NCBI GenBank assembly: GCA_018830645.1
Contig: JAHJSA010000069.1
Span: 1 to 55,278 of the forward strand
Source of the DNA: Actinomycetota bacterium
GTDB lineage: Bacteria > Actinomycetota > Thermoleophilia > RBG-16-64-13
Direction: 5' to 3'
Length of the DNA stretch: 55,278 nt
The position numbers were made by a program, and so were the translations under genes. This document shows, in pieces, positions 8,510-26,967 of the stretch. Each line of letters begins with the position of its first letter. The stretch's first letter is position 1. Below the pieces are notes generated by a model. It did no database searches and had not been told where the DNA came from. It was given only the letters and a program-made list of their open reading frames with translations.

Positions 8510-8513
8510 GGGC

Positions 8514-9107
8514 CTACCCGGTCTTTCCGGCGGTGCCTGGAGCCACGGGCGGTGCTGCGTCACCCGCGCTCGGTTCAGTGGTGCCCACTGCGCCCGCCGG
8601 CGCGGCCTCCCGGATGCGCCCGGCGGCGTCCTGCACCGCCTCGAGCACATGGTAGTGAGTGATGCAGCGGCAGTGATTGCCCGCGAGCGCCTCCTGCACC
8701 TCCGCCAACGTGGGCACCGGGTTCTCGTCCAAGAGCGCCTTCGCGCTCATGAGGATACCCGGAGTGCAGAAGCCACACTGGAAGGCGGTGTGATCCACGA
8801 AGCTCTGCTGCAAAGGATGAAGCGCCCCCGTCTGCGGATCGACGAGCCCCTCCACCGTCACCACGCTACACCCGTCGCACTCCACGGTGAGGAGCGTGCA
8901 CGAGAGCACGGCCCGGCCGTCGAGTAGCACGGTGCACATGCCGCAGGCACCTCGGTCGCATGACACTTTGGTGCCGGTGAGACCCAGGACGTGGCGCAGG
9001 GTGTGCGCGAGGGTGTCCGCCGGGTCCACATCGGCCGCCGCGTGCCCCACGGTCAAGACGTGAGTCCGCCTATTGACCGTCAACCGGATCTGCGAAGCCC
9101 CCTGCAT
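8514..9107 (-). CDS. 2Fe-2S small subunit of the Mo hydroxylase
   Basis: 197 residues. The N-terminal plant-ferredoxin-like cluster site is CDRGACGMC plus the Cys in VLSCTLL; the C-terminal four-helix cluster site is CGFCTPG plus CRC in GNHCRCITHY. These are the two [2Fe-2S] centres of CoxS/HcrC-type subunits. The usual GNLCRCTGY is changed to GNHCRCITHY, a mild divergence. A 40-residue Ala/Pro/Gly-rich tail extends past the usual end. First gene of the operon. Confidence 0.9.
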   Translation of the reverse strand: MQGASQIRLTVNRRTHVLTVGHAAADVDPADTLAHTLRHVLGLTGTKVSCDRGACGMCTVLLDGRAVLSCTLLTVECDGCSVVTVEGLVDPQTGALHPLQQSFVDHTAFQCGFCTPGILMSAKALLDENPVPTLAEVQEALAGNHCRCITHYHVLEAVQDAAGRIREAAPAGAVGTTEPSAGDAAPPVAPGTAGKTG

Positions 9108-9140: not shown

Positions 9141-9299
9141 CTAGCCCTTCAAGGAACGAGCATACCGTACCGCTTCCTCCCCCGCGATGCGCCCACTGTT
9201 GACGCCCACCCGTCCCAGCCCCGGAGTATCGCGGATCTGGTCGCGCTCGTCGAAGGGCCCGAACTCACCCACGGCACAATGGCCGCGCGTGATGGTCAC
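9141..9299 (-). pseudogene. C-terminal fragment of an FAD/NAD-linked dehydrogenase (remnant)
   Basis: A 52-codon frame starts with a GTG overlapping the acetoacetate-CoA ligase stop (GTGA) and ends at TAG 9143-9141. The peptide contains GEFGPFDERDQIRDTPGLG and NSGRIAGEEAVRYARS, resembling the end of flavoprotein dehydrogenases where a glycine-rich loop and NSGRIAG-like helix close the FAD site. No upstream part is present, so it is probably a leftover of a gene deleted here. The family assignment is tentative; a real small protein is possible. Confidence 0.35.
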
Positions 9300-12153: not shown

Positions 12154-15114
12154 CTACTCCCCCGCCCACGGCTCCACGTCGATCAGGCACGAGAGCGCCG
12201 CCATGGCGTGCGAGCGTTTGATCATCATGCGGCTCGGGGTGAGGATGTTCACGCAGCCGCCCCGGTCGGGCGACTCCCCGGGCTCACCTATGGGGTCGTA
12301 CGTGGCGGCCGACTCGTACGAGTGCACCGTACCCGGCCGCACCCGTTCCGAGAGCTGGGCCGCGCAGATGACTGCGCCTCGGTCGTTGAAGAGCTTGATG
12401 AGTGCGCCCTCCGTGATGCCGCGGGCGGCCGCGTCGGCCGGGTTCACGCGAGCCACCCAGTAGTAGTAGCCGTCGATGAGCACGCGGTGGTCCTTCACGT
12501 CGTTGATGGTGCTGTCCTTGCCGTCGCTCATGGTGTGGAAGGTGAAGCGGGCGTGCGGGGAAACAAGGTGCAACGGGTACTTTTCGTAGAGTTCGGCGGC
12601 GTGGGGACCCTCCCACGCCGGGACGTACTTGAGGATGGGTGACCGTTCGGGATCGTCGGGGTCGAGGCGCTTCAGGCTCGACGACTCGAACTCCAGCTTG
12701 CCCGACTGAGTCTGGAGGCCACGACGGAACTCCTCGGTGTAGTCGCCGGGGAGTGGTGCGAGTTCAGGGGTGTCCTTGAGACGGTCCTCGTAGAACCAAC
12801 GATACGACACGGGGTCGCGGCGCTCGACGGAGGGCGGCGGCACCACGTAGTAGCCCTTCTTCGCGAACTCCTTCCACGACATGGTCTTGGGCAGGTCGGT
12901 GGCTTCGAAGACGCGGCGGCACCAGTCGAGCTCGGTCATGCCCTCGGAGTAGACGGCGCCGAGCCCCAGGCGCGTGGCCAGCTCGAGGAAGATCTGGAAG
13001 TCCGACTTCGACTCGCCCAGAGGCTCGATGCACTTATGTTGCATCAACGCCACTCGGTGGTTCACCTGGGTGAACGAGTGCTGGATGTAGCCACCCGAGT
13101 TGGCGAACTCGCTGATGTCCCAGCGCTCGAAGCTGGTGCAGGCGGGCAGGATGACGTCGGCGAAGGCGGCCTCGCCCTCGAACCAGATAGATTGGTTGAC
13201 GACGAACTCCAGCTTGTCGGCCCGATACATGCGGGCGTAACGGTTCGTGTCGACCATCGTGCCGAAGTGGGAGCCGCCGTACTTGTAGTACATCTTCACC
13301 GGCGAGTGGCCGGGCGACGGGTACTGGAAACGGAAGAACTGACCCTCGATGGTGCGGGGGTCGGTGGGGTAGCCCTCACAATGCCCGTCCATGATGGCCT
13401 CGGGGATCTTCAGGCGAGGGATCGCCTGTTGCACCGTGTTCATGGTGGCAACCTGCGGCATGCGCTGATACATGTTGGCGGCGAGGGCGGTGCCGTTCAG
13501 GTCGCCGGAGAAACCACCCTCCGCGTAGCCCGGGAAGAAGAAGCGCGTGTCCACGGGGGTGCCTTGCTGCATACAGCCCACGTTGACGCCGGGCTTGCCC
13601 AGGCCCTGCATGGCCATGAGGCACACCATGCCCCGAGCCCAGTCGCCGCCGGTGGCGGTGCGACAGGCGGCCCCGAAGCCGACGATGCCCCCGGGCGCCA
13701 GATAGGTGCGCTTGCTCCCCCATTCGCGGGCCAGGGCACGGATATCCTTGGCGGGCACGCCCGACTCGGCCTCCTGCCACTCCGGGGTCTTGGCGACGCC
13801 GTCCTCCTCGCCCAGGATGTAGGCCTTCCACTTGTCGAAGCCCACCGTACGGTCGGCCACGTAGTCCTGGTCGTACAGTCCCTCGGTGATCCAGGTGTGG
13901 GCGATGGCCAGCACCATGGCGCTGTCGGTGCCGGGGAGCGGCGCCAGCCACTTGCCGCCGAGCAGGGCGGCCGTGTGGTTGTAGTAGGGGTCGATGTGCA
14001 CGAAGGGGATGCCGAGCTCCTTCAGCCACTGGCGGCGGATGGTGCCCTCGTGGGCGCCGTACACTCCGCTTGTGGCCTCCGGGTCCGACGACCAGAACAC
14101 CACCATCTCGCAGTGCTTCAGGCAATCTTCCACCGTGCTGTAGGTCTCGCCGCCGCCGTTGCGGGCGCTGTGGCCCCAGTGGTGGGTGGCGCCCCAGTAC
14201 CACCCCTCCCAGCTGTCGGGGTTGTGGGCGATGGGCGTCCAGCCGATCGTGTTGAAGAAGCGCATGCGCGCGCTCAGCCAGTAGCCCAGGATGCCCCAGG
14301 TGTGGTGCGAGCCGGAGCCGTTCATGATGGCGCCGGGGCCGTGCTCGCGCTTCACCCGCTTGATCTCGGCGGCCACCAAGTCGAGCGCCTCGTCCCAGCT
14401 GATGCGCTCGTAGCCGGAGGTGCCCCTATTCTGTGGATTCCGCTCGCCGTTCGGATCGAAGTCCACCCGCTTCATCGGGTAGAGGATGCGGGCGGGCGAG
14501 TACACCATCGACTTCCAGGCCAGGGTGTGCGAGTTGATGGTGGTCTTGCGCGGCGGGGAGAAGATGCGACCGTGAGCCTCGATGGTCCAGCTCTCGGGGT
14601 CGGAGTCGTCGAACTCGATGGGCGTGATGCGCAGGATCTTGCCGTCCTTCACGAACACGAAGACGGGTCCGCCGTTCGTGTTGCTCGTGAAGCGACGCAC
14701 CCCGTCGCCCATATCGGTGCCGTACTCGGTTCCCGCGGTGAGCATCATCTGCAGAGTCTGCGAGAACCACACGCCTGCCTCGTCGGAGCCGTCAAGGGCC
14801 ATCTCGAAGTTCTTGAGGGCGCTGATGAATTCCAGGGTGTCCCGATTGGGCTTCATCAGGCGCACCGCCACGTCGGCCGTGTCGAACACCATGCTGCAGT
14901 CGGGCGATGGGTGGATGCCGGAGGCGGACTTCACCTTGCCGCCGCGGATCGCGAAGTAACGGCCGTGCGACCCGTCGCGCAGGGCGATCTGGGCCACGAT
15001 GTCGCGCTCGCGCAGACGGGCGGCGAAGTCGGGGTGCCTGCGGGCCGTGGCCCGAAGCAGTACCTCGACGCCCAGGAGGGTGGCGGTGAAGCGCTTGTCG
15101 GCGAGAGTGCTCAC
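12154..15114 (-). CDS. Pyrogallol-type transhydroxylase, large (molybdopterin) subunit with N-terminal SCP2-like domain
   Basis: 986 residues. From about residue 145 it is closely similar along its length to the Pelobacter acidigallici pyrogallol:phloroglucinol transhydroxylase alpha subunit (DMSO-reductase family). The residues I recall as catalytic there (His144, Asp174, Ser175 binding Mo, Tyr404) all align at a constant offset of 126: His270 in GSHHTWG, Asp300-Ser301 in NPDSWEGW, Tyr530 in FFFPGYAEGG. Residues 1-130 (ALRDGSHGRYFAIRGG, FISALKNFEMALDG) look like an SCP2 sterol-carrier-type domain not found in the Pelobacter enzyme. Predicted reaction: convert pyrogallol to phloroglucinol using 1,2,3,5-tetrahydroxybenzene as cosubstrate. 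The related resorcinol hydroxylase (RehL) is an alternative. The start overlaps the small-subunit stop. No twin-Arg signal, so cytoplasmic. Confidence 0.88.
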   Translation of the reverse strand: MSTLADKRFTATLLGVEVLLRATARRHPDFAARLRERDIVAQIALRDGSHGRYFAIRGGKVKSASGIHPSPDCSMVFDTADVAVRLMKPNRDTLEFISALKNFEMALDGSDEAGVWFSQTLQMMLTAGTEYGTDMGDGVRRFTSNTNGGPVFVFVKDGKILRITPIEFDDSDPESWTIEAHGRIFSPPRKTTINSHTLAWKSMVYSPARILYPMKRVDFDPNGERNPQNRGTSGYERISWDEALDLVAAEIKRVKREHGPGAIMNGSGSHHTWGILGYWLSARMRFFNTIGWTPIAHNPDSWEGWYWGATHHWGHSARNGGGETYSTVEDCLKHCEMVVFWSSDPEATSGVYGAHEGTIRRQWLKELGIPFVHIDPYYNHTAALLGGKWLAPLPGTDSAMVLAIAHTWITEGLYDQDYVADRTVGFDKWKAYILGEEDGVAKTPEWQEAESGVPAKDIRALAREWGSKRTYLAPGGIVGFGAACRTATGGDWARGMVCLMAMQGLGKPGVNVGCMQQGTPVDTRFFFPGYAEGGFSGDLNGTALAANMYQRMPQVATMNTVQQAIPRLKIPEAIMDGHCEGYPTDPRTIEGQFFRFQYPSPGHSPVKMYYKYGGSHFGTMVDTNRYARMYRADKLEFVVNQSIWFEGEAAFADVILPACTSFERWDISEFANSGGYIQHSFTQVNHRVALMQHKCIEPLGESKSDFQIFLELATRLGLGAVYSEGMTELDWCRRVFEATDLPKTMSWKEFAKKGYYVVPPPSVERRDPVSYRWFYEDRLKDTPELAPLPGDYTEEFRRGLQTQSGKLEFESSSLKRLDPDDPERSPILKYVPAWEGPHAAELYEKYPLHLVSPHARFTFHTMSDGKDSTINDVKDHRVLIDGYYYWVARVNPADAAARGITEGALIKLFNDRGAVICAAQLSERVRPGTVHSYESAATYDPIGEPGESPDRGGCVNILTPSRMMIKRSHAMAALSCLIDVEPWAGE

Positions 15115-16001
15115 AGGGAGACCTCCTGCAGACGGATAGTGCCCACGTTGCAGCTGCCCGCGATGTCGACCTCGTAGGACACAGGCGCGTATCCTTCCAA
15201 CGCGATGGAGAAGGAGTAGCCTCCCGGCTCCAAGACCAGACCGTCGATGCGGAAGTCACCGAACGCATCGGTGATGGCCGTAGAAAGCGGCGCGGAGGCC
15301 GACCCCCCCGTGGCCGACTCGGCCGCGACCGGATCGCCGGCGTACAGTTCGACGGTCGCCCCCGCGGCACACTCCACGAGGCCGTCGCGCTCCAGCGATA
15401 CGGAGCCGCACACGAGGTGGGAATCCCAGCGCGACAGGTTCTTGTAGAGCACCCGCGGCCGGGTGGCGTACTCTGGGTTCAGGGCTTCCAGGCCTTGGCC
15501 CGCCGCGGTCGCCTGCATCTGCATGTCGGAGGCTTCCACGAGCCGCAGCGCCCCGGTGGGGCACGCCTGGGTGCACCGCGTGTCGCGCCACCCCTGGTCG
15601 AGCAGGTGGGCGCAGAGGGTGCACTTCTGGGGCAGCCCGGCCTCCTCGTTCCAGAATATTGCTCCGTAGGGGCAGGAGGCGGGCAACTCGCTCATGCCTT
15701 GGGTGCGAACTGGATCGATGAGCACGATGCCATCCTCGCGCTTGCGCACGGCGCCGCCGCCGGCGGCCACGCACGGGGCGTCGTCACAGTGCATGCACGG
15801 CACGGGTAGGTACACGGCATCCACCAGCGGGTAGCGCCCCCGCTCCTTCCGCAGGATGTCGATCCACCTCTGGCCGTGCCGCGGCTGGGAAGCCGCGTAG
15901 CCGGGCCACTCGTTGTCGACGTGCTCGTCCTTGCAGGCGAGGAAGCAGTTGTTGCAGTCCTCGCAGCGTTCCACGTCGATCACCAGATGCCATCGGGCCA
16001 T
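15111..16001 (-). CDS. Transhydroxylase small (iron-sulfur) subunit
   Basis: 296 residues. Four-cluster ferredoxin arrangement like the beta subunit of Pelobacter transhydroxylase: CEDCNNCFLAC, CMHCDDAPCVAAGGG, CPYGAIF, CTLCAHLL, CTQACPTGAL. The C-terminal part from about residue 200 (GATVELYAGDP, ITDAFGDFRIDGL) is the small Ig/carboxypeptidase-regulatory-like barrel also present in the Pelobacter subunit. It shuttles electrons for the Mo centre. It overlaps the large-subunit gene by four bases and is preceded by a strong GGAGGGAGGA ribosome-binding site. Confidence 0.9.
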   Translation of the reverse strand: MARWHLVIDVERCEDCNNCFLACKDEHVDNEWPGYAASQPRHGQRWIDILRKERGRYPLVDAVYLPVPCMHCDDAPCVAAGGGAVRKREDGIVLIDPVRTQGMSELPASCPYGAIFWNEEAGLPQKCTLCAHLLDQGWRDTRCTQACPTGALRLVEASDMQMQATAAGQGLEALNPEYATRPRVLYKNLSRWDSHLVCGSVSLERDGLVECAAGATVELYAGDPVAAESATGGSASAPLSTAITDAFGDFRIDGLVLEPGGYSFSIALEGYAPVSYEVDIAGSCNVGTIRLQEVSL

Positions 16002-16101
16002 GTGTCCTCCCTCACGCGACGGCCGACGGAAGGCGGGCGACCCCCCTAGGGGCGATCGACCATCGCCGTCCGCCGGTCCCGCAACCTACCAGTGGATGAT
16101 C

Positions 16102-16863
16102 CTACTGCTCGTCCTCGTCGATGATGGCCACCAGGCGCACGATGGAGCCGTCGCCCTTGGTCCAGCGGATGGGGAAGCCGGCGATGGTGCACCGCATGCC
16201 CACCACCTGAGCCAGGTCGCCGCCCACGTTCTCCCACCCCATGATGCCGTTGCGCATCAGCAGGTTGTGGCAGGGCTCCCACTCGGGGAAGTCCTCGAGA
16301 ACGTCGCGACCGGTCTCGCGCTTGTATTCAGCGCACACGTCGGGGCGCAGCGGGCCGGGGCCGTGCGGTCCGATAGCCGTGCCGAGCGGATGGTCGAGTG
16401 CCTGCTGGTCCACGCCTACAGCCTTGACGCCTTTCTCCACGAACCACTCACCGGCTTCTTTGTACAAGCCCGGGGAGTAGCAGAAGTACTCGGTGCTGTC
16501 GGAGTACTTGTGATGCCACCCCGTGTGGACGATCACGATGTCGCCCTTCTCGATCTTGGGCGTGGCCTTCTCCAGGTCGTCGGCGGTGATGACGCCCCAC
16601 TTGGGCTTGGGGATGTCCACGATGACGCCGGTGCCGTAGTAGCTGTCCAAGGGGATCTGATCGGTGTACAGACCGCCCTCGAACACGTGGGCCGGGGAGT
16701 CGGCGTGGGTCGAGCAGTGCATCGTGGTGGTGATCACCTGCGAGAGTACGCCCGACTTGGCGTGGTAGTGCATCCGCTCGATCTTGACGTCCGAGAAGTA
16801 CGGCCACAGCGGCACCTTGTCGCCGAAGGGATGACTCAGGTCCACCAATCTCGTCTTGCCCAT
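16102..16863 (-). CDS. Cyclase-family metal hydrolase; candidate dihydrophloroglucinol cyclohydrolase
   Basis: 253 residues. The motif HCSTHADSPAH is the HxGTHxDxPxH metal-binding signature of the cyclase family (kynurenine formamidase-like), with DLSHPFGDKVPLW at the N-terminus and GVDQQALDHPLG later. In anaerobic phloroglucinol degradation a Mn-dependent member of this family hydrolytically opens dihydrophloroglucinol to 3-hydroxy-5-oxohexanoate. Position between the SDR/dehydrogenase genes and the transhydroxylase supports that role here; activity itself is inferred. It follows the dehydrogenase gene by five bases. Confidence 0.8.
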   Translation of the reverse strand: MGKTRLVDLSHPFGDKVPLWPYFSDVKIERMHYHAKSGVLSQVITTTMHCSTHADSPAHVFEGGLYTDQIPLDSYYGTGVIVDIPKPKWGVITADDLEKATPKIEKGDIVIVHTGWHHKYSDSTEYFCYSPGLYKEAGEWFVEKGVKAVGVDQQALDHPLGTAIGPHGPGPLRPDVCAEYKRETGRDVLEDFPEWEPCHNLLMRNGIMGWENVGGDLAQVVGMRCTIAGFPIRWTKGDGSIVRLVAIIDEDEQ

Positions 16864-16868
16864 CTCTA

Positions 16869-17948
16869 CTACTCCTTTGTGTGATTGTTACCCGGGGCCG
16901 CGGACTCCGTGGGGGCCGTGGCGATGTCCAGGTTCTTGACTACTCCCACCAGGTACTCGAGGAGCCCTTCGCGCGAAGCCCGTATGGCCTCAGGCGTCCA
17001 TTCCTGGAAGCCGCGGCCGCTCTTGAAACCGAGGTCGCCGGCCGCTACCCGCTCCCGGAGGAGGGGTGACGGCTCCGGAGAGGCCTCCAGGTGCGGCAAG
17101 AGATACTCGTGGATGCTCAAGGTGAGGTCGAGGCCGACCATGTCGGCAGTCTCCAGGGGAGCCAAGCGCGGAAGGCGCAGCCCGAAGCCATATCGGATGC
17201 ACTCGTCCACGGTGGCGGCATCGGCGATGCCCCGCTCGACGATGGAGATGGCTTCCCGCCACAGCGCGTGCTGGAGGCGGTTGGCCACGAAGCCGGGTAC
17301 GTCCTTCTCAACGCGCACCGCGTGCTTGCCTGCTGCCGTGAGGATCGAGAGGGCCCGCTCCATGGTGGCGTAGCTGGTGTCGGCCCCCCGCACCACTTCC
17401 ACCAGGGGGATGAGGTAGGGTGGGTTCCAGAAGTGCGTGCCCACGATGCGCTCGCGATGCTCGGCCCGCGAAGCGATCTGCGTGATGCTCATCACCGAGG
17501 TGTTGGTAGCAAGGACAGCTTCCCGCGGCGCGCAGGCGTCGAGCACCCGGAAGATCTCCTGCTTCAACCCCATATCTTCGAACACGCACTCCACCACGAA
17601 ATCGGCGGCGGCGGCCGCCTCTTCCATGTCGGCCGTGGTGGTGATGCGGGCCACGGTCGCCTCCACGGCGGCCTCGTCGCCCACGCCGCGGGCGGCGAGA
17701 AAGGCGAGGTTGCGGCGAACGCTCTCTACGGCGGGGTCTAGACCCTCAGGCCGGACGTCCTGCAGGATCACCTGGTGCCCAGCGACCGCGAACACCTGGG
17801 CGACGCCGTGGCCCATCAGCCCGGCGCCGATGACGGCAACGCGCTCCTTGACCTGCTGGGCGCCGACGTGCGCGCCCGGCTGGGCGTACGACTGCGCCCC
17901 CTGCTGGGTGCCGGTCTCCGCGCGGGCCTCTTTGCCCTGTGTCTCCAC
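16869..17948 (-). CDS. 3-hydroxyacyl-CoA-dehydrogenase-like enzyme; candidate 3-hydroxy-5-oxohexanoate dehydrogenase
   Basis: About 359 residues from the GTG at 17948, preceded by GGGGGA and just after the SDR stop; a shorter start at a GTG giving VKERVAVIGAG is possible. The Rossmann motif VAVIGAGLMGHGVAQVF, VECVFEDMGLKQEIF, ATNTSVMSITQIA and GTHFWNPPYLIPLVEVV are those of 3-hydroxybutyryl-CoA dehydrogenases. WNPPYLIPLVEVV replaces the usual FNPP.MKLVEV, suggesting a non-CoA substrate such as 3-hydroxy-5-oxohexanoate, which this family oxidises to triacetate in phloroglucinol-degrading clostridia. The roughly 30-residue Gln/Ala-rich N-terminal stretch is unusual. Confidence 0.8.
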   Translation of the reverse strand: METQGKEARAETGTQQGAQSYAQPGAHVGAQQVKERVAVIGAGLMGHGVAQVFAVAGHQVILQDVRPEGLDPAVESVRRNLAFLAARGVGDEAAVEATVARITTTADMEEAAAAADFVVECVFEDMGLKQEIFRVLDACAPREAVLATNTSVMSITQIASRAEHRERIVGTHFWNPPYLIPLVEVVRGADTSYATMERALSILTAAGKHAVRVEKDVPGFVANRLQHALWREAISIVERGIADAATVDECIRYGFGLRLPRLAPLETADMVGLDLTLSIHEYLLPHLEASPEPSPLLRERVAAGDLGFKSGRGFQEWTPEAIRASREGLLEYLVGVVKNLDIATAPTESAAPGNNHTKE

Positions 17949-17956
17949 TCGTCCCC

Positions 17957-18760
17957 CTACCCGGCCGAGCTGCCGCCGTCGACGTACATGATCTGACCCG
18001 TGACGAACTCGGCGGCGTCGGAGGCCAGATACACGATGGCGCCCATGAAATCGCGCGGCTCCGCGGCGCGGCCCCACGGGATGCGGCTCATGAAGATCTT
18101 GTAGAGCTCCGGATCGTTCAGTACCTGCTCGGTGAGCGGTGTCCAGAAGATGCAGGGCGCGAGGGCATTCACGTTGATCTTGTGCTTGGCCCACTCGGTG
18201 GCCAGCTGCCGCGTGAGCAGATGGATCGCCCCTTTGCTCGTGCCGTACGCGGAGTATCCACCAGGGTGGCCGAACTGGCCTCGGATCGAGGAGACGGTGA
18301 CGATGCGGCCGCCGCCTTGCTCGATCATGTGCTTGCCCACCGCTTTGCAGCACAGGAACGTGCCCCGCACGTTCACGTCCATGATCTTCTGCCACTCGTC
18401 GATGGGGAAGTCCTCGGCCGGGAACCGGTTCGCGATGCCGGCGCTGGTCACCAGGATGTCGATCGTGCCGTGCCTTTCCAGAGTTGCGGCGACCATGTCC
18501 TGCACGCTGGCCTCGTCCTGCACGTCGCAGGAGATGGTGGTGACGGAGCGGCCCGTCTCCCGCACTCGCTCCGCCGCTTCTTCCAGAACTTCGGCGCGCC
18601 GCGCGGTGAGCACCACGTCGGCGCCGTAGGCGGCCAGGCTCAACGCCGCGGCCTCGCCGAGAGCCCCTGATCCACCGGTGATCACGGCCGTGCGGCCGGT
18701 CAGGTCGAACAGGTTCCGTATCTGATCCAGCGACAAGGTCTTCGGCTGTGGTACGTCCAT
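17957..18760 (-). CDS. Short-chain dehydrogenase/reductase; candidate phloroglucinol reductase
   Basis: 267 residues. Classical SDR: AVITGGSGALGEAAALSLAAYGADVVLTARR, NAG-equivalent TSAGIANR, catalytic VSSIRGQFGHPGGYSAYGTSK (Ser, Tyr, Lys), and a closing GQIMYVDGGSSAG. The TARR after the second strand suggests NADPH preference. Phloroglucinol reductase of anaerobic phloroglucinol degraders is an NADPH-dependent SDR forming dihydrophloroglucinol; the adjoining ring hydrolase and dehydrogenase genes make this the likely role, but SDR sequences alone do not define substrates. Confidence 0.8.
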   Translation of the reverse strand: MDVPQPKTLSLDQIRNLFDLTGRTAVITGGSGALGEAAALSLAAYGADVVLTARRAEVLEEAAERVRETGRSVTTISCDVQDEASVQDMVAATLERHGTIDILVTSAGIANRFPAEDFPIDEWQKIMDVNVRGTFLCCKAVGKHMIEQGGGRIVTVSSIRGQFGHPGGYSAYGTSKGAIHLLTRQLATEWAKHKINVNALAPCIFWTPLTEQVLNDPELYKIFMSRIPWGRAAEPRDFMGAIVYLASDAAEFVTGQIMYVDGGSSAG

Positions 18761-19132: not shown

Positions 19133-19921
19133 TCAGCCGCCCACCAGGGCGGTCTGCATGTCCTTGCCCGCCCGAAGCAGGGCGGCCGCCAGACGCTCTT
19201 CGTCGCCTTCGAAGCGGGCCGTAGGCGCCACCACGGTCACCGCGGCCATGCTCCCGGCCGCGTCGCGAACCACGGCACCCACCGCCGACATGCCCAGCGT
19301 GTGCTCCTCTCGGTCGTAGGCCACCCCCTCGGTGCGCACCCGCGCCAGCTCTTCGAGAAGCTCCTCTCGCCCGGTGATGGTGTGCTCGGTGAGTGCGGGC
19401 AACTCCTCGGGCACAAGCCGCCATACCTCTTCCAGGGAAAGCTCGGCGAGCAGCGCCTTGCCGTTGGCGGTGCAGTGAACGGGGAAGCGGGCGCCGATCT
19501 CCGACACGATGCGCAGACGCCGCCGCGACGTGTACTGATCGACGAAGAGCACCTGGCCGCCTTCCAAGACCGCCAGATCGACCGTCTCCCCCAGCTCGTG
19601 AGACAGACGACGCAGGTAGGGAGATACTTCATGACGCAGGTCGCGGCGCCCGCCCACAGCGAGTCCGATCAAAGATGGTCCAAGCCTGAGGACCCCGGGA
19701 GACTCGCTGCGCACGAACGCCTCAGCCTCCAAAGCTCCAACGATGCGGTGCACCGTCGACCTCGGCAGATCGACGCCGCGGGCCACCTCGCTCAGAGTGA
19801 GACCATCTGGGGCCGAGCCGAGCAGGCGGATGATCTCGGCGGCGCGGGCGATCACCTGCACGCCCTCGCGCCGAGGACGGCCCGAGGAAGCTTCAGTCGA
19901 AGTGTCGTGCGTATCGGTCAC
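19133..19921 (-). CDS. IclR-family transcriptional regulator
   Basis: 262 residues. The N-terminal winged helix (AAEIIRLLGSAPDGLTLSEVARGVDLPRSTVHRIVGALEAEAFV) and the C-terminal ligand-binding domain (LSHELGETVDLAVLEGGQVLFVDQYTS, VHCTANGKALLA, GVAYDREEHTLGMSAVGAVVRD) are both complete. IclR proteins commonly control aromatic catabolism. Located inside the cluster, it probably senses an aromatic or ring-opened intermediate. The 9-base palindrome upstream of the lyase gene is its most likely local target. Confidence 0.9.
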   Translation of the reverse strand: MTDTHDTSTEASSGRPRREGVQVIARAAEIIRLLGSAPDGLTLSEVARGVDLPRSTVHRIVGALEAEAFVRSESPGVLRLGPSLIGLAVGGRRDLRHEVSPYLRRLSHELGETVDLAVLEGGQVLFVDQYTSRRRLRIVSEIGARFPVHCTANGKALLAELSLEEVWRLVPEELPALTEHTITGREELLEELARVRTEGVAYDREEHTLGMSAVGAVVRDAAGSMAAVTVVAPTARFEGDEERLAAALLRAGKDMQTALVGG

Positions 19922-19950: not shown

Positions 19951-20778
19951 CTACACCAACTCCGGAGACAGCTTCAACGTCTCCACGACAAGCCCCGGGT
20001 TGGCGGGCTCACGCTGAAGCATGCGGGCGATGCCCACCAGCCGTTCCACGAGTTCCGCGTTGCTGGACGCAAGGCGTCCCTTCTCGAGATACAGGGTGTC
20101 CTCGAGGCCCGTGCGCGCGTTCCCACCCATTGCCAAGCCGATGGAGGTCATGGACAGGTTGGCCCGGCCCACGCCGATCACCTGCCAGTTCGTGCCGGAC
20201 GGCAGACGTTGCACGAGGTAGGCGAGCAGAGCCGGGTCGGCGGGCATGCCGCCACGGACTCCCATGACGAACGACACCTGGAGAGGCTCAACCAGCAGGT
20301 CTTCGGCAAAGAGCGCCATGGCCATGTCCAGGTGACCCGTATCGTAGATCTCGAGCTCCGGCTTCACTCCGAGTTCGAGCATACGTGCCGCCAGCTGACG
20401 CATCTGAGTGGGCGGATTGCGGAACTCGCCAACGCCGAAGGTCATGGAGCAGGTATTGAGCGTCGCCATGGCCGGGCGTGCTTCGACGATCTTCATGCGG
20501 TCCTCGTACGGCACGTCGAGACCCGCGCCGGTGGACAGCTGGATGATCACTTCCGGGCAGGCCTCACGGACGGCCTCGACCGTGCGGCGAGCCACGTCCA
20601 GATCGGCGGTGGGCAGGCCTTCGCTGTCGCGAAGATGCAGGTGCACGATCGCGGCGCCGGCCTCATAGGCGCCCTTCGCACTTGCTGCAATCTCCGCCGG
20701 GGAAGTGGGAAGTGCCGGGTTGTCGCTCTTGAGCGCGATGGGTCCGGTCAGGGCAGCTGTGATGATCACGCTCGACAT
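19951..20778 (-). CDS. BKACE-family beta-keto acid cleavage enzyme; candidate triacetate acetoacetate-lyase
   Basis: 275 residues. Zn-binding HLHLRD near residue 47, and RTGLED with the preceding GGNA near the C-terminus, are the signatures of BKACE (DUF849/Kce) TIM-barrel enzymes, which transfer an acyl unit of a beta-keto acid to acetyl-CoA. In phloroglucinol-degrading clostridia a BKACE cleaves triacetate with acetyl-CoA to acetoacetate plus acetoacetyl-CoA. The neighbouring reductase, hydrolase, dehydrogenase and downstream acetoacetate-CoA ligase fit that reaction. Kce (3-keto-5-aminohexanoate cleavage) is less likely because no lysine-pathway genes are nearby. First gene of the operon. 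Confidence 0.83.
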   Translation of the reverse strand: MSSVIITAALTGPIALKSDNPALPTSPAEIAASAKGAYEAGAAIVHLHLRDSEGLPTADLDVARRTVEAVREACPEVIIQLSTGAGLDVPYEDRMKIVEARPAMATLNTCSMTFGVGEFRNPPTQMRQLAARMLELGVKPELEIYDTGHLDMAMALFAEDLLVEPLQVSFVMGVRGGMPADPALLAYLVQRLPSGTNWQVIGVGRANLSMTSIGLAMGGNARTGLEDTLYLEKGRLASSNAELVERLVGIARMLQREPANPGLVVETLKLSPELV

Positions 20779-20852: not shown

Positions 20853-20882
20853 ATTCTGTCAGTAGCGGCGCGCGCATGTCAA
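20853..20882 (-). promoter_or_regulatory. Putative promoter of the phloroglucinol-type operon
   Basis: On the minus strand TTGACA (20882-20877) is followed after 18 bases by CAGAAT (20858-20853), a good sigma-70-type match, with the palindrome just downstream. The -35 overlaps the stop codon of the preceding isomerase gene. Confidence 0.5.
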
Positions 20883-21712
20883 GCTGAATCTGCCCACCCG
20901 CGCACGAACTCCACCGCGGCGCGCGCCGCAGCGAGATCGTCGGGATGGGGCAGTACCTCGGCCGAGAACCACCCTCCGTATTCGGCGTCGCGAAGTGCCT
21001 CGCGCACCTCCACGTAGTCCACGTGGCCCGCGCCAGGGGCACGGCGGTTGCTGTCGACCACATGGAAGTAGCCGAGGCGCGGTCCCGCTTCGCGGATGGC
21101 GTCGCCGATGCGCACCTCCTCGATGTTCATGTGGAACACATCGAGGAGCACACCCACCGACTCGTCGCCCACATCCTCCAGGAACTCGAGCGTCTGCGCC
21201 GCCGTGTTCAAGAAGGAGGTCTCGTATCGGTTGATGGCCTCCACCACCAACCCCACTCCCCGAGCCCGGGCCTCCGTGGCGCATTCGAGCGTGCACTCCA
21301 CCAGCCGCCGGCGCGTCGCCGCGCCATCGGGGTCGGAAGCCGGGGGTCGGGAACCCCGCAGCAGGCCGAGTATCACCACCGCGCCGAACCGGGCGGCGAG
21401 GGCGATGTGCCCGCCCAAGCGGGCGACGGCCTCGCGCCGCACCCGCCTATCGGGATCGGAGAACGAGAGACCGTCCTCAAGGAAGGCCCGGCCGCTGCCG
21501 AGAGCGCTCAACGCCAGGCCTCGGCGATCCAACTCCTCGGAGAGCCACCCAGCGTCGACCTCCTCGGCGGCGCGCAGACTCAGTTCCACCCCGTCGTACC
21601 CGAGGTCGGCGGCGGCCCCGATCGCGCGATCCACTCGGCCTGCGAACAGCAACGGAGCGAACGGCGAGGCCGCCGGAGAGGTGGCCAGCGCCATGCGAAG
21701 CCGCTCAGGCAC
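20879..21712 (-). CDS. iolO: Sugar isomerase/epimerase TIM-barrel protein, IolO-like (5-keto-L-gluconate epimerase)
   Basis: 277 residues. It aligns along its length with Thermotoga IolO: a Ser-rich N-terminus (MALATSPAASPFAP), GYDGVELSLR, ALGSGRAFLEDGLSFSDPD, LVVEAINRYETSFLNT, GVLLDVFHMNIEEVRIGDAI and FHVVDSNRRAPGAGHVDY, carrying the Glu-Asp-His-Glu metal ligands of the family. IolO converts 5-keto-L-gluconate to D-tagaturonate in the Thermotoga inositol route. It sits eight bases after the IolN-like gene, which strongly supports the same pathway. Substrate is inferred from homology and neighbours. Confidence 0.82.
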   Translation of the reverse strand: MPERLRMALATSPAASPFAPLLFAGRVDRAIGAAADLGYDGVELSLRAAEEVDAGWLSEELDRRGLALSALGSGRAFLEDGLSFSDPDRRVRREAVARLGGHIALAARFGAVVILGLLRGSRPPASDPDGAATRRRLVECTLECATEARARGVGLVVEAINRYETSFLNTAAQTLEFLEDVGDESVGVLLDVFHMNIEEVRIGDAIREAGPRLGYFHVVDSNRRAPGAGHVDYVEVREALRDAEYGGWFSAEVLPHPDDLAAARAAVEFVRGWADSA

Positions 21713-21720
21713 GGCGGCCT

Positions 21721-22824
21721 TCAGTCACTGGACCCGACCGTGGGCAGCACGTACACCGAGCGCCAGCCCTCGCTCATCGGTTCCCGCAGGTACGGCTCGA
21801 GCTCGGCCTCGGTGCGCAGCGACACCATCTCGACGGGCGGCAGCGTGCCCGCGGGGAACGCCTCGAGGATCTGGTCGCACACCAGGGTGAGATACCGCAG
21901 CGAGGCCACCAGCGGCCTCTTCGCCTTGTACGCCGCTCCCAAGGTCGGCTTGCCCACCACCCCTTCTGGAGTGGCCTTGATCTCTATGCCGAAGTGCCCC
22001 TCCCCCTCCGACCACCGGTGAGGCCGATGCAGTCCGTCCACCGAATTGTCGAAGTGGCCATCCGGCAGGAAGGGCATGCCCACCGTGTCCACCGCGTGGT
22101 CCATGTGCACCATCTCGGGGAAGAGCAAGAGCCCCAGCGAGGTTTCGGCCTCATCCGCGTGGATGAAGGGGGTCTCGTGACTGCCACCGCCTTCCACCGG
22201 ACGGAAGAACTCCCGCACTCCGCGGTGCCAGTCGAGCACGCGGAACACACCGGGAAGCTGGAAACGCTTGGCGAACTGCTGGACCGCCGCCTCGAGCATC
22301 CAGAAATGTCCGTGGTTGTTGATGATGATCTGCTTGCGAAAGCCGTCGTTCCAGAGGCCGAGCATCACGTCGATCAGCAGCTCCTTGGCCACCTCCTCGC
22401 GTACGATGACCGTGCCGGGCATCCCCAAGTGGTGGTAGGGATGCGAGCCGTACATCAGCGGCGGCAATGCCAGGCTCACCGGATTCCCCCGCTTGGCGGA
22501 GTAGCGACGGACGGCCTCGGCGATATGGCTCACGAAGAGGGTGTCCATCGCGCTGACCGTGTGGGCACCGTGGTTCTCGGTGCAACCTACCGGGATGAGG
22601 ACGATGTCGTTCTTGCGCCGGTTGTCCACGACCTCGTGACGCACGGTGGTTTGAAGGTAGGAGCCGGGCTTGGTCCATTCGCAGGGCGACGGCACGCCAT
22701 ACTCCGCCAGCCAGGCGTCGATCTGTTGGTCGTCCGCGTCCCACGTCTCCTTTTTCAGACGTCCGACCGGGGTGTCTTCGAACCAGAGGTCCGGGTAATT
22801 GGTCGGGATCAGGTTCGTTGCCAT
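21721..22824 (-). CDS. iolN: Creatininase-family hydrolase, IolN-like (3-dehydro-scyllo-inosose hydrolase)
   Basis: 367 residues, much longer than creatininase (about 250) but the size of the IolN group. Metal ligands are seen in PVGCTENHGAHTVSAMDTLF (Glu, His, Asp), NNHGHFWMLEAAVQ and ADEAETSLGLLLFPEMV. IolN hydrolyses the diketo-inositol ring C-C bond to a linear keto acid. The preceding and following genes encode IolO-like and transketolase proteins. Start ATG has GGAGGAA upstream. Confidence 0.82.
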   Translation of the reverse strand: MATNLIPTNYPDLWFEDTPVGRLKKETWDADDQQIDAWLAEYGVPSPCEWTKPGSYLQTTVRHEVVDNRRKNDIVLIPVGCTENHGAHTVSAMDTLFVSHIAEAVRRYSAKRGNPVSLALPPLMYGSHPYHHLGMPGTVIVREEVAKELLIDVMLGLWNDGFRKQIIINNHGHFWMLEAAVQQFAKRFQLPGVFRVLDWHRGVREFFRPVEGGGSHETPFIHADEAETSLGLLLFPEMVHMDHAVDTVGMPFLPDGHFDNSVDGLHRPHRWSEGEGHFGIEIKATPEGVVGKPTLGAAYKAKRPLVASLRYLTLVCDQILEAFPAGTLPPVEMVSLRTEAELEPYLREPMSEGWRSVYVLPTVGSSD

Positions 22825-22834
22825 GGTTCCTCCT

Positions 22835-23824
22835 TCAGCGTCGTGTCGCGGTCAACTCGCGACAGGCCTGAGCCACGTCGTGAGCGGTGAGCCCGTACTT
22901 CTGGAGCAGCTGGTCGTTCGGCGCCGATTCGCCGAAGGTGTCTCGAATGCCCACACGGCGCATGAGGGTAGGTCGGTGTTCGCCCAGAACCTCGGCCACG
23001 GCTCCGCCGAGCCCCCCGAGCACGTTGTGTTCCTCTGCCGTCACCACCAGCCCGGTGCGTTCGGCCGCCTCCACGACGGCCTTCACGTCCAGCGGCTTCA
23101 CCGTGGGCACGTGGAGAACGTGCGCCTGGATGCCTTCCGCGGCCAGCGTATCGGCGGCCTCCAAGGCACGAGGAAGCATGAGTCCCGTGGTCATCACGGT
23201 GACGTCGGCACCCTCCCGCACCGTGACCGCCACCCCGATGCGGAAGTCATAGTCGTCGCCGAACACCACCGGGCTCGGATCGCGGGTGAGCCGCAGATAG
23301 ATCGGAGCGCCGTACTCGGCGGCGGCGAACACGGCCGCCCGCACCTCGACGGCGTCTCCGGGCACGATCACGGTCATCTCGGGCATCGAGCGCAGGATGG
23401 CGATGTCCTGCACCGACTGGTGGGTCTTGCCGGTCTTGCCCGCCAGCAGACCGCTGTAGGCGCCGGTGATCACCACTCCGAGTCGAGGTTGGGCGATGCC
23501 GATGCGGATCTGGTCTGTGGCGCGCTTGCTGGCGAAGCAGGCGAAGGTGCTGGTGAAGGGCACGAACCCCATCGTCGCCAGGCCCGCGGCGATACTGGTC
23601 ATGTTCTGCTCTGCGATACCCACCTCGAAGAAGCGGTCCGGGTAGGCGGCGGCGAACATGCTCACCTTGGTGGAGGTGGCCAAGTCGGCGTCGAGCACCA
23701 CCACCCGGGGGTCCGCGGCCCCCAGATCCACCAGCGCCTGCCCGAAGGCGTCGCGGGCCGCGACCATGGGCCGGGGCAGCGCGGGGCCCGAAGCGGCTGC
23801 CTCGCCGGTCCGTTCGGCGCTCAC
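22835..23824 (-). CDS. Transketolase, C-terminal half (pyrimidine-binding and C-terminal domains)
   Basis: 329 residues from a GTG overlapping the N-terminal-half stop (GTGA). The pyrimidine-binding domain contains the ThDP-activating Glu in FFEVGIAEQNMTSIAAGLA, plus GAYSGLLAGKTGKTHQS; the C-terminal domain has TTGLMLPRALEAADTLAAEG. Split two-subunit transketolases are common in anaerobes and archaea. Together with the next gene it forms one enzyme moving two-carbon ketol groups. Confidence 0.88.
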   Translation of the reverse strand: MSAERTGEAAASGPALPRPMVAARDAFGQALVDLGAADPRVVVLDADLATSTKVSMFAAAYPDRFFEVGIAEQNMTSIAAGLATMGFVPFTSTFACFASKRATDQIRIGIAQPRLGVVITGAYSGLLAGKTGKTHQSVQDIAILRSMPEMTVIVPGDAVEVRAAVFAAAEYGAPIYLRLTRDPSPVVFGDDYDFRIGVAVTVREGADVTVMTTGLMLPRALEAADTLAAEGIQAHVLHVPTVKPLDVKAVVEAAERTGLVVTAEEHNVLGGLGGAVAEVLGEHRPTLMRRVGIRDTFGESAPNDQLLQKYGLTAHDVAQACRELTATRR

Positions 23825-24651
23825 GATGCCGCTCCGCTCACGAGTTCGGCCAAAGCCCGCTCCCGCAACTCGTCGGTGACCGCGGCCGAGTGCCACTCCA
23901 CGCTGTTCTCCATGAAGGAGACGCCCTTCCCCTTGGTGGTGTGCGCGATGATCACCGTGGGACGCCCGGTGATCTCCGGGGCGGCGGCGGCGCAGAGGGC
24001 GGCCGCCAGGGCGGCGCAGTCGTGGCCGTCGACCTCGAGCACGTTCCAGCCGAAGGCCCGCCACTTGTCGGGCAGCGGTTCCAACGACACGATCGACTCC
24101 ACCGTCCCGTAGAGCTGCAGTCGGTTGGCGTCGACGATCGCCGTGAGGCTGTCGAGACCGAAACTGGAGGCGGCCATAGCCGCCTCCCACACCTGACCCT
24201 CCTGAAGCTCTCCGTCACCGAGGAGCACGAACACCCGTGCCTCGCTGCCCTTGAGCCTCGCGCCGAGCGCCATGCCGATGCCCACCGAGAGCCCCTGGCC
24301 CAGCGAGCCCGAACAGGTGTCGATGCCAGGCAGGCCCACGAAGGGATGGGCCTGCAGCATGGAGTCGAGCTCGTCGTACGTGGTGAGGAGTTCGGGGGAG
24401 AAGTAGCCGCGCTCGGCGAGCGTGGCGTAGTAGATCGGCGCCGCGTGACCCTTCGAGAGCACGAAACGGTCGCGGTCGGCCCAGTCCGGGCGGGTCGGGT
24501 CGATTCTCATCGCCCCAAAGTAGAGAACGGTGAGTATCTCGGCGGCACTCAGTGATCCGCCGGGGTGACCGGCCTGCGCACGCCACAGCATGTCTATCGT
24601 GCGCCGCCTCAGGCGGCGGGCCACCTCATCGTGTGACACATCTGATCCCAC
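23821..24651 (-). CDS. Transketolase, N-terminal half (ThDP pyrophosphate-binding)
   Basis: 276 residues. GHPGGSLSAAEILTVLYFG, KGHAAPIYYATLAERGYF, SGSLGQGLSVGIGMALGARL and the ThDP/metal motif GDGELQEGQVWEAAMAASSFGLD followed by VDANRLQ are all present. It lies directly before the C-terminal half and 49 bases after the dehydrogenase gene, embedded in an inositol-type operon rather than in a pentose-phosphate cluster, which suggests a dedicated role on the ketouronate product. Confidence 0.9.
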   Translation of the reverse strand: MGSDVSHDEVARRLRRRTIDMLWRAQAGHPGGSLSAAEILTVLYFGAMRIDPTRPDWADRDRFVLSKGHAAPIYYATLAERGYFSPELLTTYDELDSMLQAHPFVGLPGIDTCSGSLGQGLSVGIGMALGARLKGSEARVFVLLGDGELQEGQVWEAAMAASSFGLDSLTAIVDANRLQLYGTVESIVSLEPLPDKWRAFGWNVLEVDGHDCAALAAALCAAAAPEITGRPTVIIAHTTKGKGVSFMENSVEWHSAAVTDELRERALAELVSGAAS

Positions 24652-24700
24652 TGCGCACCTCCTCCGCGTCGCCGGCCCGGTCCCTCGCCACCGCTGCGGT

Positions 24701-25792
24701 TCAGGGGTGCAGCACGACCTTGAGTGCCCCGTCCCTGCGCTCCACGAAGGTGGAAAGGGCCCCAGCGAACTCCTCGAGAGGGAAGATGTGCGTGATCATC
24801 GACCGCACTTCGACTGCTCCGTTGGCGATGAGAGCCAGAGCGGGCACCGACGTGTTCGGATTGGCGCGCACGCCCAGCATGTCGATCTCGTCCAGCACGA
24901 TCTTGGCCCAGGGGATCTCCACGGGCTCCGTGGGGATGCCGTTCATCACCAGACGTCCGCCCTTCGCGGTCATGCCGACGGCCTGGGTACAGGCCGTCCT
25001 CGTACCCGCGCACTCGATCACCACGTCTGCTCCCCGCCCGCCCGTCAGTTCGAGCACGCGCTGCACGGGGTCCACGGACTCGTAGTCCACCGGCACGGCA
25101 CCCATGTCGGCGGCCTGTCGCAGCCGGGTGCCCCGGCCCACCATCAAGACCTTCTCCGCGCCCGCAGCGGTCGAATACTGCTGGGTCAGCATGCCCACGG
25201 GCCCCGGCCCGATGACCACCACGGTGTCACCCACACCCACCCGGCCGCGACGTACTCCCTGCAACGCCACTCCGGCCGTGTCGAGCATGGCGCCCTCGTC
25301 GAACGACAACTCATCGGGTAGCCGATGCAGCGACTTCGCCGACGCGACCACATACTTCGCGTAGGCACCCTGGCTGGTGAAGCCGTAGTGCCGGTGACCC
25401 GCGGAGGCGTCGCCATAGTTCCGACAGATGGTGTAGTGTCCGGAGAGGCAGTTCGCACAGGTACCGCAACCGCAGTGAGCTTCTCCGGCCACGCGGGCGC
25501 CCACCCCCACGCGTTCGGCCGCCTTGGGCGAGGAGGCCACGCCGACCCCGAGTGCCACTACGTCCCCCGCCCACTCGTGCCCGATGATGAAGGGGTAGGT
25601 CTTGGGCCACACTCCGGGGAATGCGCCCTTCACGATCTTGGGGTCGGTGCCGCAGATGGCCACCGAGCGGACCCGACACAGCACCTCGTCGTCCGCCGGG
25701 ACGGGGGTGGGCACCTCTCTCATCTCGAACTCGCCAGGGCCCGTGAGCACCAGGGCCTGCATCGTGGTGGGAACGCCGGATCCGCCGCTCAT
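24701..25792 (-). CDS. iolM: Zn-dependent medium-chain dehydrogenase, IolM-like
   Basis: 363 residues. Catalytic zinc: Cys in VAICGTDPK and GHEWAGDVV; structural zinc: CGCGTCANCLSGHYTIC (four Cys). Rossmann motif VVVIGPGPVGML. In the Thermotoga inositol route IolM, a Zn dehydrogenase, oxidises scyllo-inosose to a diketo-inositol that IolN opens. The co-occurrence with IolN and IolO homologues supports this, though the Zn-dehydrogenase family is broad. It is probably the first gene of the operon; the inositol 2-dehydrogenase (IolG) is not in the window. Confidence 0.78.
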   Translation of the reverse strand: MSGGSGVPTTMQALVLTGPGEFEMREVPTPVPADDEVLCRVRSVAICGTDPKIVKGAFPGVWPKTYPFIIGHEWAGDVVALGVGVASSPKAAERVGVGARVAGEAHCGCGTCANCLSGHYTICRNYGDASAGHRHYGFTSQGAYAKYVVASAKSLHRLPDELSFDEGAMLDTAGVALQGVRRGRVGVGDTVVVIGPGPVGMLTQQYSTAAGAEKVLMVGRGTRLRQAADMGAVPVDYESVDPVQRVLELTGGRGADVVIECAGTRTACTQAVGMTAKGGRLVMNGIPTEPVEIPWAKIVLDEIDMLGVRANPNTSVPALALIANGAVEVRSMITHIFPLEEFAGALSTFVERRDGALKVVLHP

Positions 25793-25923: not shown

Positions 25924-26967
25924 CTACCCGAAGAACGTCTGCGCGATCTCGTAGAGCTCCAGCGGCACGGTCTTCAGCTCAACGAGCGCCTCGGCGAGGG
26001 GCACCTCCACGATGGCGTCGCCGCGCAAGGCGGCCATCATGCCCCATCGCCCCTCCTTGACCATCTCGGCCGCCTTGACACCGTACCGAGTGGCCAGCAC
26101 CCGGTCGTGGGCCGTGGGCGTGCCGCCCCGCTGGGTGTAGCCGAGGATGGTGACACGGGCGTCGAACCCCGTCATGCGCTCGATCTCCTTGGCGAGCACC
26201 GCACCCACGCCGCCGAGGCGCACGTGTCCGAAGGCGTCCAGTTGGTCGGAGCTCAAGATCGTCTGCCCCTCGCCCGAGCGCCAGGTGAGGGCGGTGCCCT
26301 CGCTCACCACGACTATGGAGAAGTGCTTGCCCCGTGCGGCGCGTTGCTCGACCAGATCGCACACGTCTTCCACCGTCAGCGGGAACTCGGGAATGAGGAT
26401 GGCGTCGGCTCCCCCGGCGATGCCGGACATAACTGCGATCCAACCGGTGTGCCTGCCCATGACCTCCACCACCATCACCCGGTTGTGCGATTCCGCGGTG
26501 GAGTGCAGACGGTCGACGGCCTCGGTCGCCACGGACACGGCGGTGTCGAAGCCGAAGGTGTAGTCGGTGCCGCCGATGTCGTTGTCGATGGTCTTGGGCA
26601 CGCCCACCACCTGCAGACCGAATTCAGCGTGCAGACGATTGGCGACTCCCAGCGTGTCCTCGCCGCCTATGGCGACCACCGCATCGATGCCCCTGCCCCG
26701 CACTGTGGCCATCACACGGTCGGCGTCACCCTCGATCTTGAAGGGGTTGGTACGCGAGGTACCGATAATGGTGCCACCCTGGTGCAGGATGCCGCTCACG
26801 GCGCTCGGCCCGAGCAGTTTGAGGTCGTCTTCCACGAGGCCGCGCCATCCGTTGCGGATACCGTAGACCTCCCACCCGTACTCCGCTCCCCCCCGCCGGG
26901 TCACAGCACGGATGACGGCGTTGAGGCCGGGGCAATCTCCGCCCCCGGTGAGCATGGCGATCCGCAT
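25924..26967 (-). CDS. 6-phosphofructokinase, probably pyrophosphate-dependent
   Basis: 347 residues. TGGGDCPGLNAVIR binds the phosphoryl donor; VPKTIDNDIGGTDYTFGFDTA is the catalytic segment; GRHTGWIA and GYTQRGG bind the sugar phosphate. The donor-selecting position in AIGGEDTLG carries Asp where ATP enzymes have Gly, and Lys precedes TIDND, both typical of PPi-dependent enzymes such as that of Amycolatopsis methanolica. It would convert fructose-6-phosphate and fructose-1,6-bisphosphate reversibly. It is separated from the preceding operon by a hairpin. Confidence 0.88.
   Translation of the reverse strand: MRIAMLTGGGDCPGLNAVIRAVTRRGGAEYGWEVYGIRNGWRGLVEDDLKLLGPSAVSGILHQGGTIIGTSRTNPFKIEGDADRVMATVRGRGIDAVVAIGGEDTLGVANRLHAEFGLQVVGVPKTIDNDIGGTDYTFGFDTAVSVATEAVDRLHSTAESHNRVMVVEVMGRHTGWIAVMSGIAGGADAILIPEFPLTVEDVCDLVEQRAARGKHFSIVVVSEGTALTWRSGEGQTILSSDQLDAFGHVRLGGVGAVLAKEIERMTGFDARVTILGYTQRGGTPTAHDRVLATRYGVKAAEMVKEGRWGMMAALRGDAIVEVPLAEALVELKTVPLELYEIAQTFFG

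Follow-up and report, generated by a model that had tools for sequence, protein, structure and literature searches.

The window, a 55,278-nucleotide stretch of DNA from a soil-type actinobacterium (Actinomycetota bacterium, contig JAHJSA010000069.1), carries at 20879-25792 a five-gene operon on the minus strand that combines relatives of inositol-degrading enzymes with a transketolase divided over two genes. In transcription order the genes encode a Zn-dependent alcohol dehydrogenase (ADH), the two transketolase halves (TKN and TKC), an IolN-like hydrolase and an IolO-like epimerase (Table 1). The intergenic gaps measure ~50, 0 or 53, 10 and 8 nucleotides, the second depending on whether TKC starts at GTG 23824, which overlaps the TKN stop codon, or at ATG 23767. 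An earlier note on this DNA had described a tight operon at these coordinates; both its position and its tightness are borne out, but the gene set given was incomplete, the two transketolase genes having been left out. The operon is genuine but was partly misread, and its novelty resides in a dedicated, residue-marked transketolase.

Table 1. Features of the operon and its surroundings (positions in the window)
Feature	Position	Strand	Supporting match
Zn-dependent alcohol dehydrogenase (ADH)	24701..25792	-	PF08240/PF00107
Split transketolase, N-terminal half (TKN)	23821..24651	-	309 bits to N chain of 6yak
Split transketolase, C-terminal half (TKC)	22835..23824	-	319 bits to C chain of 6yaj
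IolN-like creatininase-family hydrolase, long form	21721..22824	-	NF041098, 315.3 bits
IolO-like ketose 3-epimerase, TIM-barrel	20879..21712	-	NF041099, 252.8 bits; TM0416 homologue, 172 bits
PFK_mixed phosphofructokinase, upstream of the operon	25924..26967	-	TIGR02483, 464 bits
BKACE (KCE), probable triacetate acetoacetate-lyase (TAL)	19951..20778	-	PF05853, 315 bits
IclR regulator of the phloroglucinol module	19133..19921	-	71% in L174
Phloroglucinol/pyrogallol module: SDR (PGR), 3HCDH (HOHDH), cyclase (DPGC), BthL, AthL	12154..18760	-	
AMP-binding protein, acetoacetyl-CoA synthetase-like	9296..11260	-	PF00501 + PF16177

Enzyme identities and conservation of the operon

Scores were compared with the cut-offs of the curated NCBI models (NF041098 IolN, 245 bits; NF041099 IolO, 300 bits; NF041097 IolM, 450 bits; IolG, 355 bits). 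The IolN-like protein clears its cut-off, and its E83, H85, D94, H171 and E225 are invariant and are candidate metal ligands. The IolO-like protein comes close but stays under the threshold; among proteins of solved structure T. maritima TM0416 is closest to it (E 1.5e-49), and it keeps the TM0416 metal and substrate motifs NRYET, FHMNIEE and DSNR. Other transketolase-linked IolO copies score 250-275 bits, as against 311 and 348 bits for copies without this linkage, and the linked group has specific residues, R75 and A159, which probably lie near the active site. Owing to the low scores and the group-specific substitutions, the substrate of the transketolase-linked IolO may differ. The ADH reaches 176 bits with the IolM model, far below its cut-off; generic threonine dehydrogenase models score it slightly higher, and in a tree it forms, together with three relatives, a clade of its own (SH-aLRT 99) outside the IolM proteins. 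It is not an IolM orthologue and is probably, by prediction, an inositol or inosose dehydrogenase. Thus, of the IolM, IolN and IolO homologues announced in the earlier note, the second stands, the third nearly so, and the first falls away. In a tree, a grouping away from characterised IolN being what the note had named as a refutation, the window IolN falls into a long-form clade, and long branches set this clade apart from the short Thermotoga-like IolN proteins (L004-L006; 39-45% identity between the two forms). The IolM, IolN and IolO labels by themselves over-predict the Thermotoga pathway.

Scanning 84,980 species genomes for this IolN returned 80 loci with proteins 65-82% identical to it, mainly in Chloroflexota and Acidobacteriota. 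The neighbours at these loci include proteins above the IolM model (511-546 bits), an IolO above its model (348 bits, L062), Gfo/Idh proteins, mannonate oxidoreductase and ABC transporters. Likewise, in an Actinomycetota relative (L128) a Gfo/Idh protein exceeds the IolG model (433 vs 355 bits) and IolO passes at 311 bits. Since the neighbours include true IolM and IolG, this long form of IolN is elsewhere part of inositol operons, and a ring-opening route of the inosose type is the supported prediction for the operon in the window. The search of plasmids yielded no IolN, and this IolN was not found in other genomes of the host family, including the same-genus genome G316.

All five genes recur, in shuffled order, in four other Actinomycetota, namely G345 (locus L033, Thermoleophilia FR_37), G310 (loci L069/L125, palsa_645), G319 (locus L126, on a contig that stops short of any ADH) and G355 (locus L127), and three of these genomes also have an IclR regulator there. 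The variable gene order argues for selection on the gene set.

The host genome (3.87 Mb, 99.84% complete) was checked by family searches. No clear Gfo/Idh IolG was found there, the only PF01408 matches being two partial ones of 28-30 bits, and no UxaB/UxuB of the Mannitol_dh family (PF01232) was matched. PF01232 was also unmatched in the four module-bearing relatives and in G316, while G310 and G319 each have one strong Gfo/Idh protein. The statement in the earlier note that iolG and the tagaturonate enzymes lie outside the window is correct, and for Gfo/Idh IolG and Mannitol_dh UxaB/UxuB it extends to the genome. With neither a clear Gfo/Idh inositol dehydrogenase nor a UxaB/UxuB-type dehydrogenase in the genome, the Thermotoga route would not operate in its described form.

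The split transketolase and its active-site signature

The closest solved homologue of TKN and TKC is the split transketolase of Carboxydothermus (6yaj/6yak). Besides this pair, the host genome encodes a full-length transketolase and a second split enzyme (40% identical), which makes the pair in the operon an extra copy; this split transketolase was not found in G316, and a housekeeping function was rejected for both reasons. An assignment as the thiamine diphosphate (ThDP) enzyme of the hydroxyhydroquinone pathway, as in resorcinol degraders, was also rejected, as true split transketolases are the nearest relatives of both proteins. A further split transketolase of the host (L146, G000:C97:99056-99961), with orthologues in G316 and G345, has the motif GEVGISHN, a Y at the position of R91 and phosphate ligands that are not kept.

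Residues are numbered here as in E. coli TktA (sequence from the K-12 record), and were placed by alignment to solved transketolases. Relative to the E. coli enzyme the operon transketolase belongs to a group marked by four exchanges, R91 to D, H461 to Y, D469 to T/N/S and P471 to K. In the window, D93 of TKN (24375-24373) takes the place of R91, and the TKC motif GKTGKTHQ sets T (23434-23432) at D469 and K (23428-23426) at P471, so that the canonical R91-D469 pair is not kept and appears as D and T. E468 is likewise exchanged, for Lys in five Actinomycetota and a Methylomirabilota copy and for Ala in a Curtobacterium copy. The Carboxydothermus enzyme, in contrast, retains R91 and D469 (motif GEDGASHQ), the positions at which this family carries D and T/N, with lysines alongside. 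In the operon transketolase the ThDP and catalytic residues H26, H66, H100, D155, N185, E411, H261 and H473 are kept, as are the phosphate ligands R358, S385 and R520. As the phosphate ligands and the histidines 26, 66, 100, 261 and 473 are intact, ThDP chemistry with a phosphorylated partner stays plausible.

All seven transketolases found to carry the signature, from five Actinomycetota, a Methylomirabilota (L179/L105, adjoining true IolM and IolN) and Curtobacterium, lie in inositol gene clusters, and the set does not occur in about twenty other split transketolases of the same IolN-bearing genomes. Taken together, 7/7 signature enzymes are inositol-linked versus 0 of about 28 others with the signature (Fisher p 1.5e-7; counted by lineage, 3 versus 28, p 2e-4), figures that serve as a guide only, since they assume independent rows and controls outside inositol clusters. 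The control loci have none of the IolN proteins, and two of them (L158 and L161) have an IolO-like neighbour. The transketolases of these two loci are split and free of the signature, adjoin an IolO-like epimerase (35-39%) and probably belong to other ketose pathways.

These observations bear on the proposal of the earlier note that the operon is Thermotoga-style and ends at D-tagaturonate, which would make the transketolase a bystander of general pentose metabolism. IolN above its cut-off, the IolO-like fold and the adjoining phosphofructokinase (a 65% homologue of which adjoins the module in L127 as well) speak for it. The T. maritima pathway (IolG, IolM, IolN, IolO, then Uxa) indeed shares with the window IolN- and IolO-family enzymes and a Zn-dehydrogenase in one operon. 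However, the window lacks an IolM orthologue and the genome a clear IolG and a Mannitol_dh UxaB/UxuB; IolN is of the long form, IolO is under its cut-off, and the extra split transketolase with its remodelled site stays with IolN in five Actinomycetota and one Methylomirabilota. The Thermotoga-style label is thus not supported, the end point is probably not a D-tagaturonate that feeds the Uxa route, and we regard the classical route as unlikely.

A predicted transketolase exit from inositol

Inositol is plentiful in plants and soil, and the bacterial routes for it known to us end in aldolase or Uxa chemistry. In the reading that we prefer, and to which we give an even chance, the operon would degrade an inositol-derived inosose and release the products through its dedicated transketolase, as a new variant of inositol catabolism. 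It is drawn from gene content, conservation, the signature residues and the lack of those classical entry and exit enzymes that were looked for; the individual reactions, the compound that is fed in and what becomes of the four-carbon acid are all predictions. The ADH would oxidize a cyclitol or inosose to a cyclic 1,3-diketone, which the IolN-like enzyme would hydrolyse to a 5-keto-hexonate, and the IolO-like enzyme would epimerise the carbon adjacent to the ketone. The split transketolase could then move the CH2OH-CO unit of a tagaturonate-like 6-carboxy-2-ketose onto a sugar phosphate, e.g. glyceraldehyde-3-phosphate, yielding xylulose-5-phosphate and a four-carbon aldehyde acid. If the analogy with the sulfo-TK pathway extends further, isomerisation of this acid and another cleavage would perhaps give glyoxylate and a second xylulose-5-phosphate. 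In that experimentally studied system C2 units are removed in two rounds by a two-subunit transketolase (SqwGH), and an isomerase (SqwI) acts between the rounds (PMC11659671). A two-subunit transketolase that passes C2 units from an anionic C6 ketose into xylulose-5-phosphate would be common to both; in the window the anionic group would be a carboxylate rather than a sulfonate, and ring opening by IolN and epimerisation by IolO would come first. No sulfoquinovose genes were recognised among the neighbours read, which were not searched specifically for Sqw proteins.

In the E. coli enzyme a salt bridge links D469 to R91, and the engineered variant D469T accepts carboxylated benzaldehydes, the carboxylate of which was docked at R91 and T469 (PMC5073344). 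The remodelled site may accordingly be read as accommodating a carboxylated ketose, which would resemble tagaturonate in the window and be 2-deoxy-5-ketogluconate in Curtobacterium. If the preferred reading holds, natural enzymes bear the change engineered into the E. coli protein, the residue signature can be used to find such pathways in genomes, and the transketolase exit is a new branch, a counterpart to sulfo-TK, that leads from cyclitols directly into the pentose phosphate pathway.

The Curtobacterium case stems from a transketolase search of plasmids that gave five records, three of which were read first; one of these three has the signature (D91, Y461, S469, K471; L183). On this plasmid (NZ_CP126261, L184:14553-30518) the split transketolase lies inside an inositol island with iolG, iolB, iolD, a succinate-semialdehyde-dehydrogenase-like gene, IclR genes, a 1-phosphofructokinase-like kinase and phosphoenolpyruvate carboxykinase. 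The kinase did not match the IolC model at the threshold used. The gene set with no IolC match fits transketolase cleavage of 2-deoxy-5-ketogluconate, which would give xylulose-5-phosphate and malate semialdehyde, the latter then being oxidized to malate, and makes the island a candidate for a second type of transketolase exit. In 2-deoxy-5-ketogluconate, the likely donor, C3 and C4 have the canonical configuration. The C4 stereochemistry of tagaturonate as sole reason for the loss of D469 is weakened by this, as Curtobacterium has S469 all the same; carboxylate binding fits both donors. By extension, and somewhat more tentatively, the transketolase subclass (D91, Y461, T/N/S469, K471) can be seen as a second inositol exit that cleaves keto-hexonates, to xylulose-5-phosphate and finally glyoxylate in IolN-type clusters, or to xylulose-5-phosphate and malate semialdehyde in IolD-type clusters. 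Another divergent type of split transketolase occurs on plasmids of Paracoccus, Salipiger, Rhizobium and Azospirillum (L185-L189, except L188), with H26 to Y, R91 to G, H100 to S and an altered D469 region; in Paracoccus, Rhizobium and Salipiger it adjoins TRAP transporter, SDR or dihydroxyacetone-kinase genes.

Several points weigh against an inositol-to-transketolase route. Neither an inositol dehydrogenase nor a transporter is assigned to the predicted pathway, and the operon contains no enzyme for the four-carbon acid. The seven signature transketolases represent at most three independent lineages, and the linked IolO copies fall under the curated cut-off and carry their own substitutions. 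Finally, in G319 a pair of transhydroxylase genes, AthL2/BthL2, occupies the same operon directly upstream of TKN-TKC-IolN-IolO (L126:2815-6213 and L175:48-1031); molybdenum-cofactor, permease and transaldolase-like genes lie further up.

The 5-keto-hexonate could also come from another source, such as L-gluconate, L-galactonate or an L-sugar, with the ADH acting as a hexonate dehydrogenase. L-Glucose catabolism also has a C-4 epimerase, which converts 5-keto-L-gluconate to D-tagaturonate (PMC12632266). That the ADH is not IolM and that no IolG was found would agree with such a source, but it leaves the ring hydrolase IolN without a role, and we consider it quite unlikely.

The neighbouring pyrogallol and phloroglucinol genes

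Next to the operon, 12154-20778 matches the phloroglucinol cluster of Clostridium scatologenes, where the PGR, HOHDH, DPGC and TAL gene set has been described (PMC10470551), together with the pyrogallol hydroxytransferase of Pelobacter (1062 bits for AthL, 246 bits for BthL). It is predicted to encode a complete pathway from pyrogallol via phloroglucinol to acetoacetate, and the acetoacetyl-CoA synthetase-like protein would consume the acetoacetate made by TAL. DPGC carries the diagnostic W20/Y22, whereas Glu14 of KCE is replaced, by Ile in the window and by Trp in C. scatologenes. The cluster is conserved in L174 and L129. In G345 it is 56-88% identical and lies 1 Mb from the inositol module, so the two are separable; G310 has both on one contig, which makes an assembly chimera unlikely. 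Membership of KCE in the inositol operon was rejected, as the gene sits in the phloroglucinol cluster in G345 and G310 (83% homologue in L174).

This proximity raises the question of whether IolN instead serves polyphenol breakdown. The AthL/AthL2 transhydroxylases would then produce tetrahydroxybenzene or a similar phenol, and IolN would open the ring of a polyhydroxylated cyclohexane-1,3-dione formed from it. A cyclohexane-1,3-dione structure is shared by dihydrophloroglucinol and the substrate of IolN, the phloroglucinol module adjoins the operon in the window and in G310, and the AthL2/BthL2 pair that shares the G319 operon is found nearby in G310 as well. However, the window IolN is ~70% identical to copies from AthL-free inositol operons, AthL is likewise missing from some inositol clusters that carry the signature transketolase, the modules of G345 are far apart and AthL2 was not found in the host genome. 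A phenolic substrate thus appears improbable. More remote still is a transfer of the C2 unit onto an aromatic quinone, as with the two-subunit transketolase Rif15 of rifamycin biosynthesis, whose acceptor is not a sugar (PMC6002545). The adjoining phenol genes would suit such a reaction, but the signature is also present in inositol clusters devoid of them and the operon shows no other sign of biosynthesis, so we hold this to be highly improbable. An inosose-type substrate remains the preferred reading.

Compared with the C. scatologenes and Pelobacter systems, the genes form a separate module here, and AthL has an N-terminal extension of ~135 amino acids (14710-15114). The extension has no Pfam match; it is common to the G345 copy (82%) and absent from the Pelobacter and G310/G319 copies. 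A large subunit of a molybdenum hydroxylase of the xanthine-dehydrogenase family is encoded near the module, at 6101-8650.

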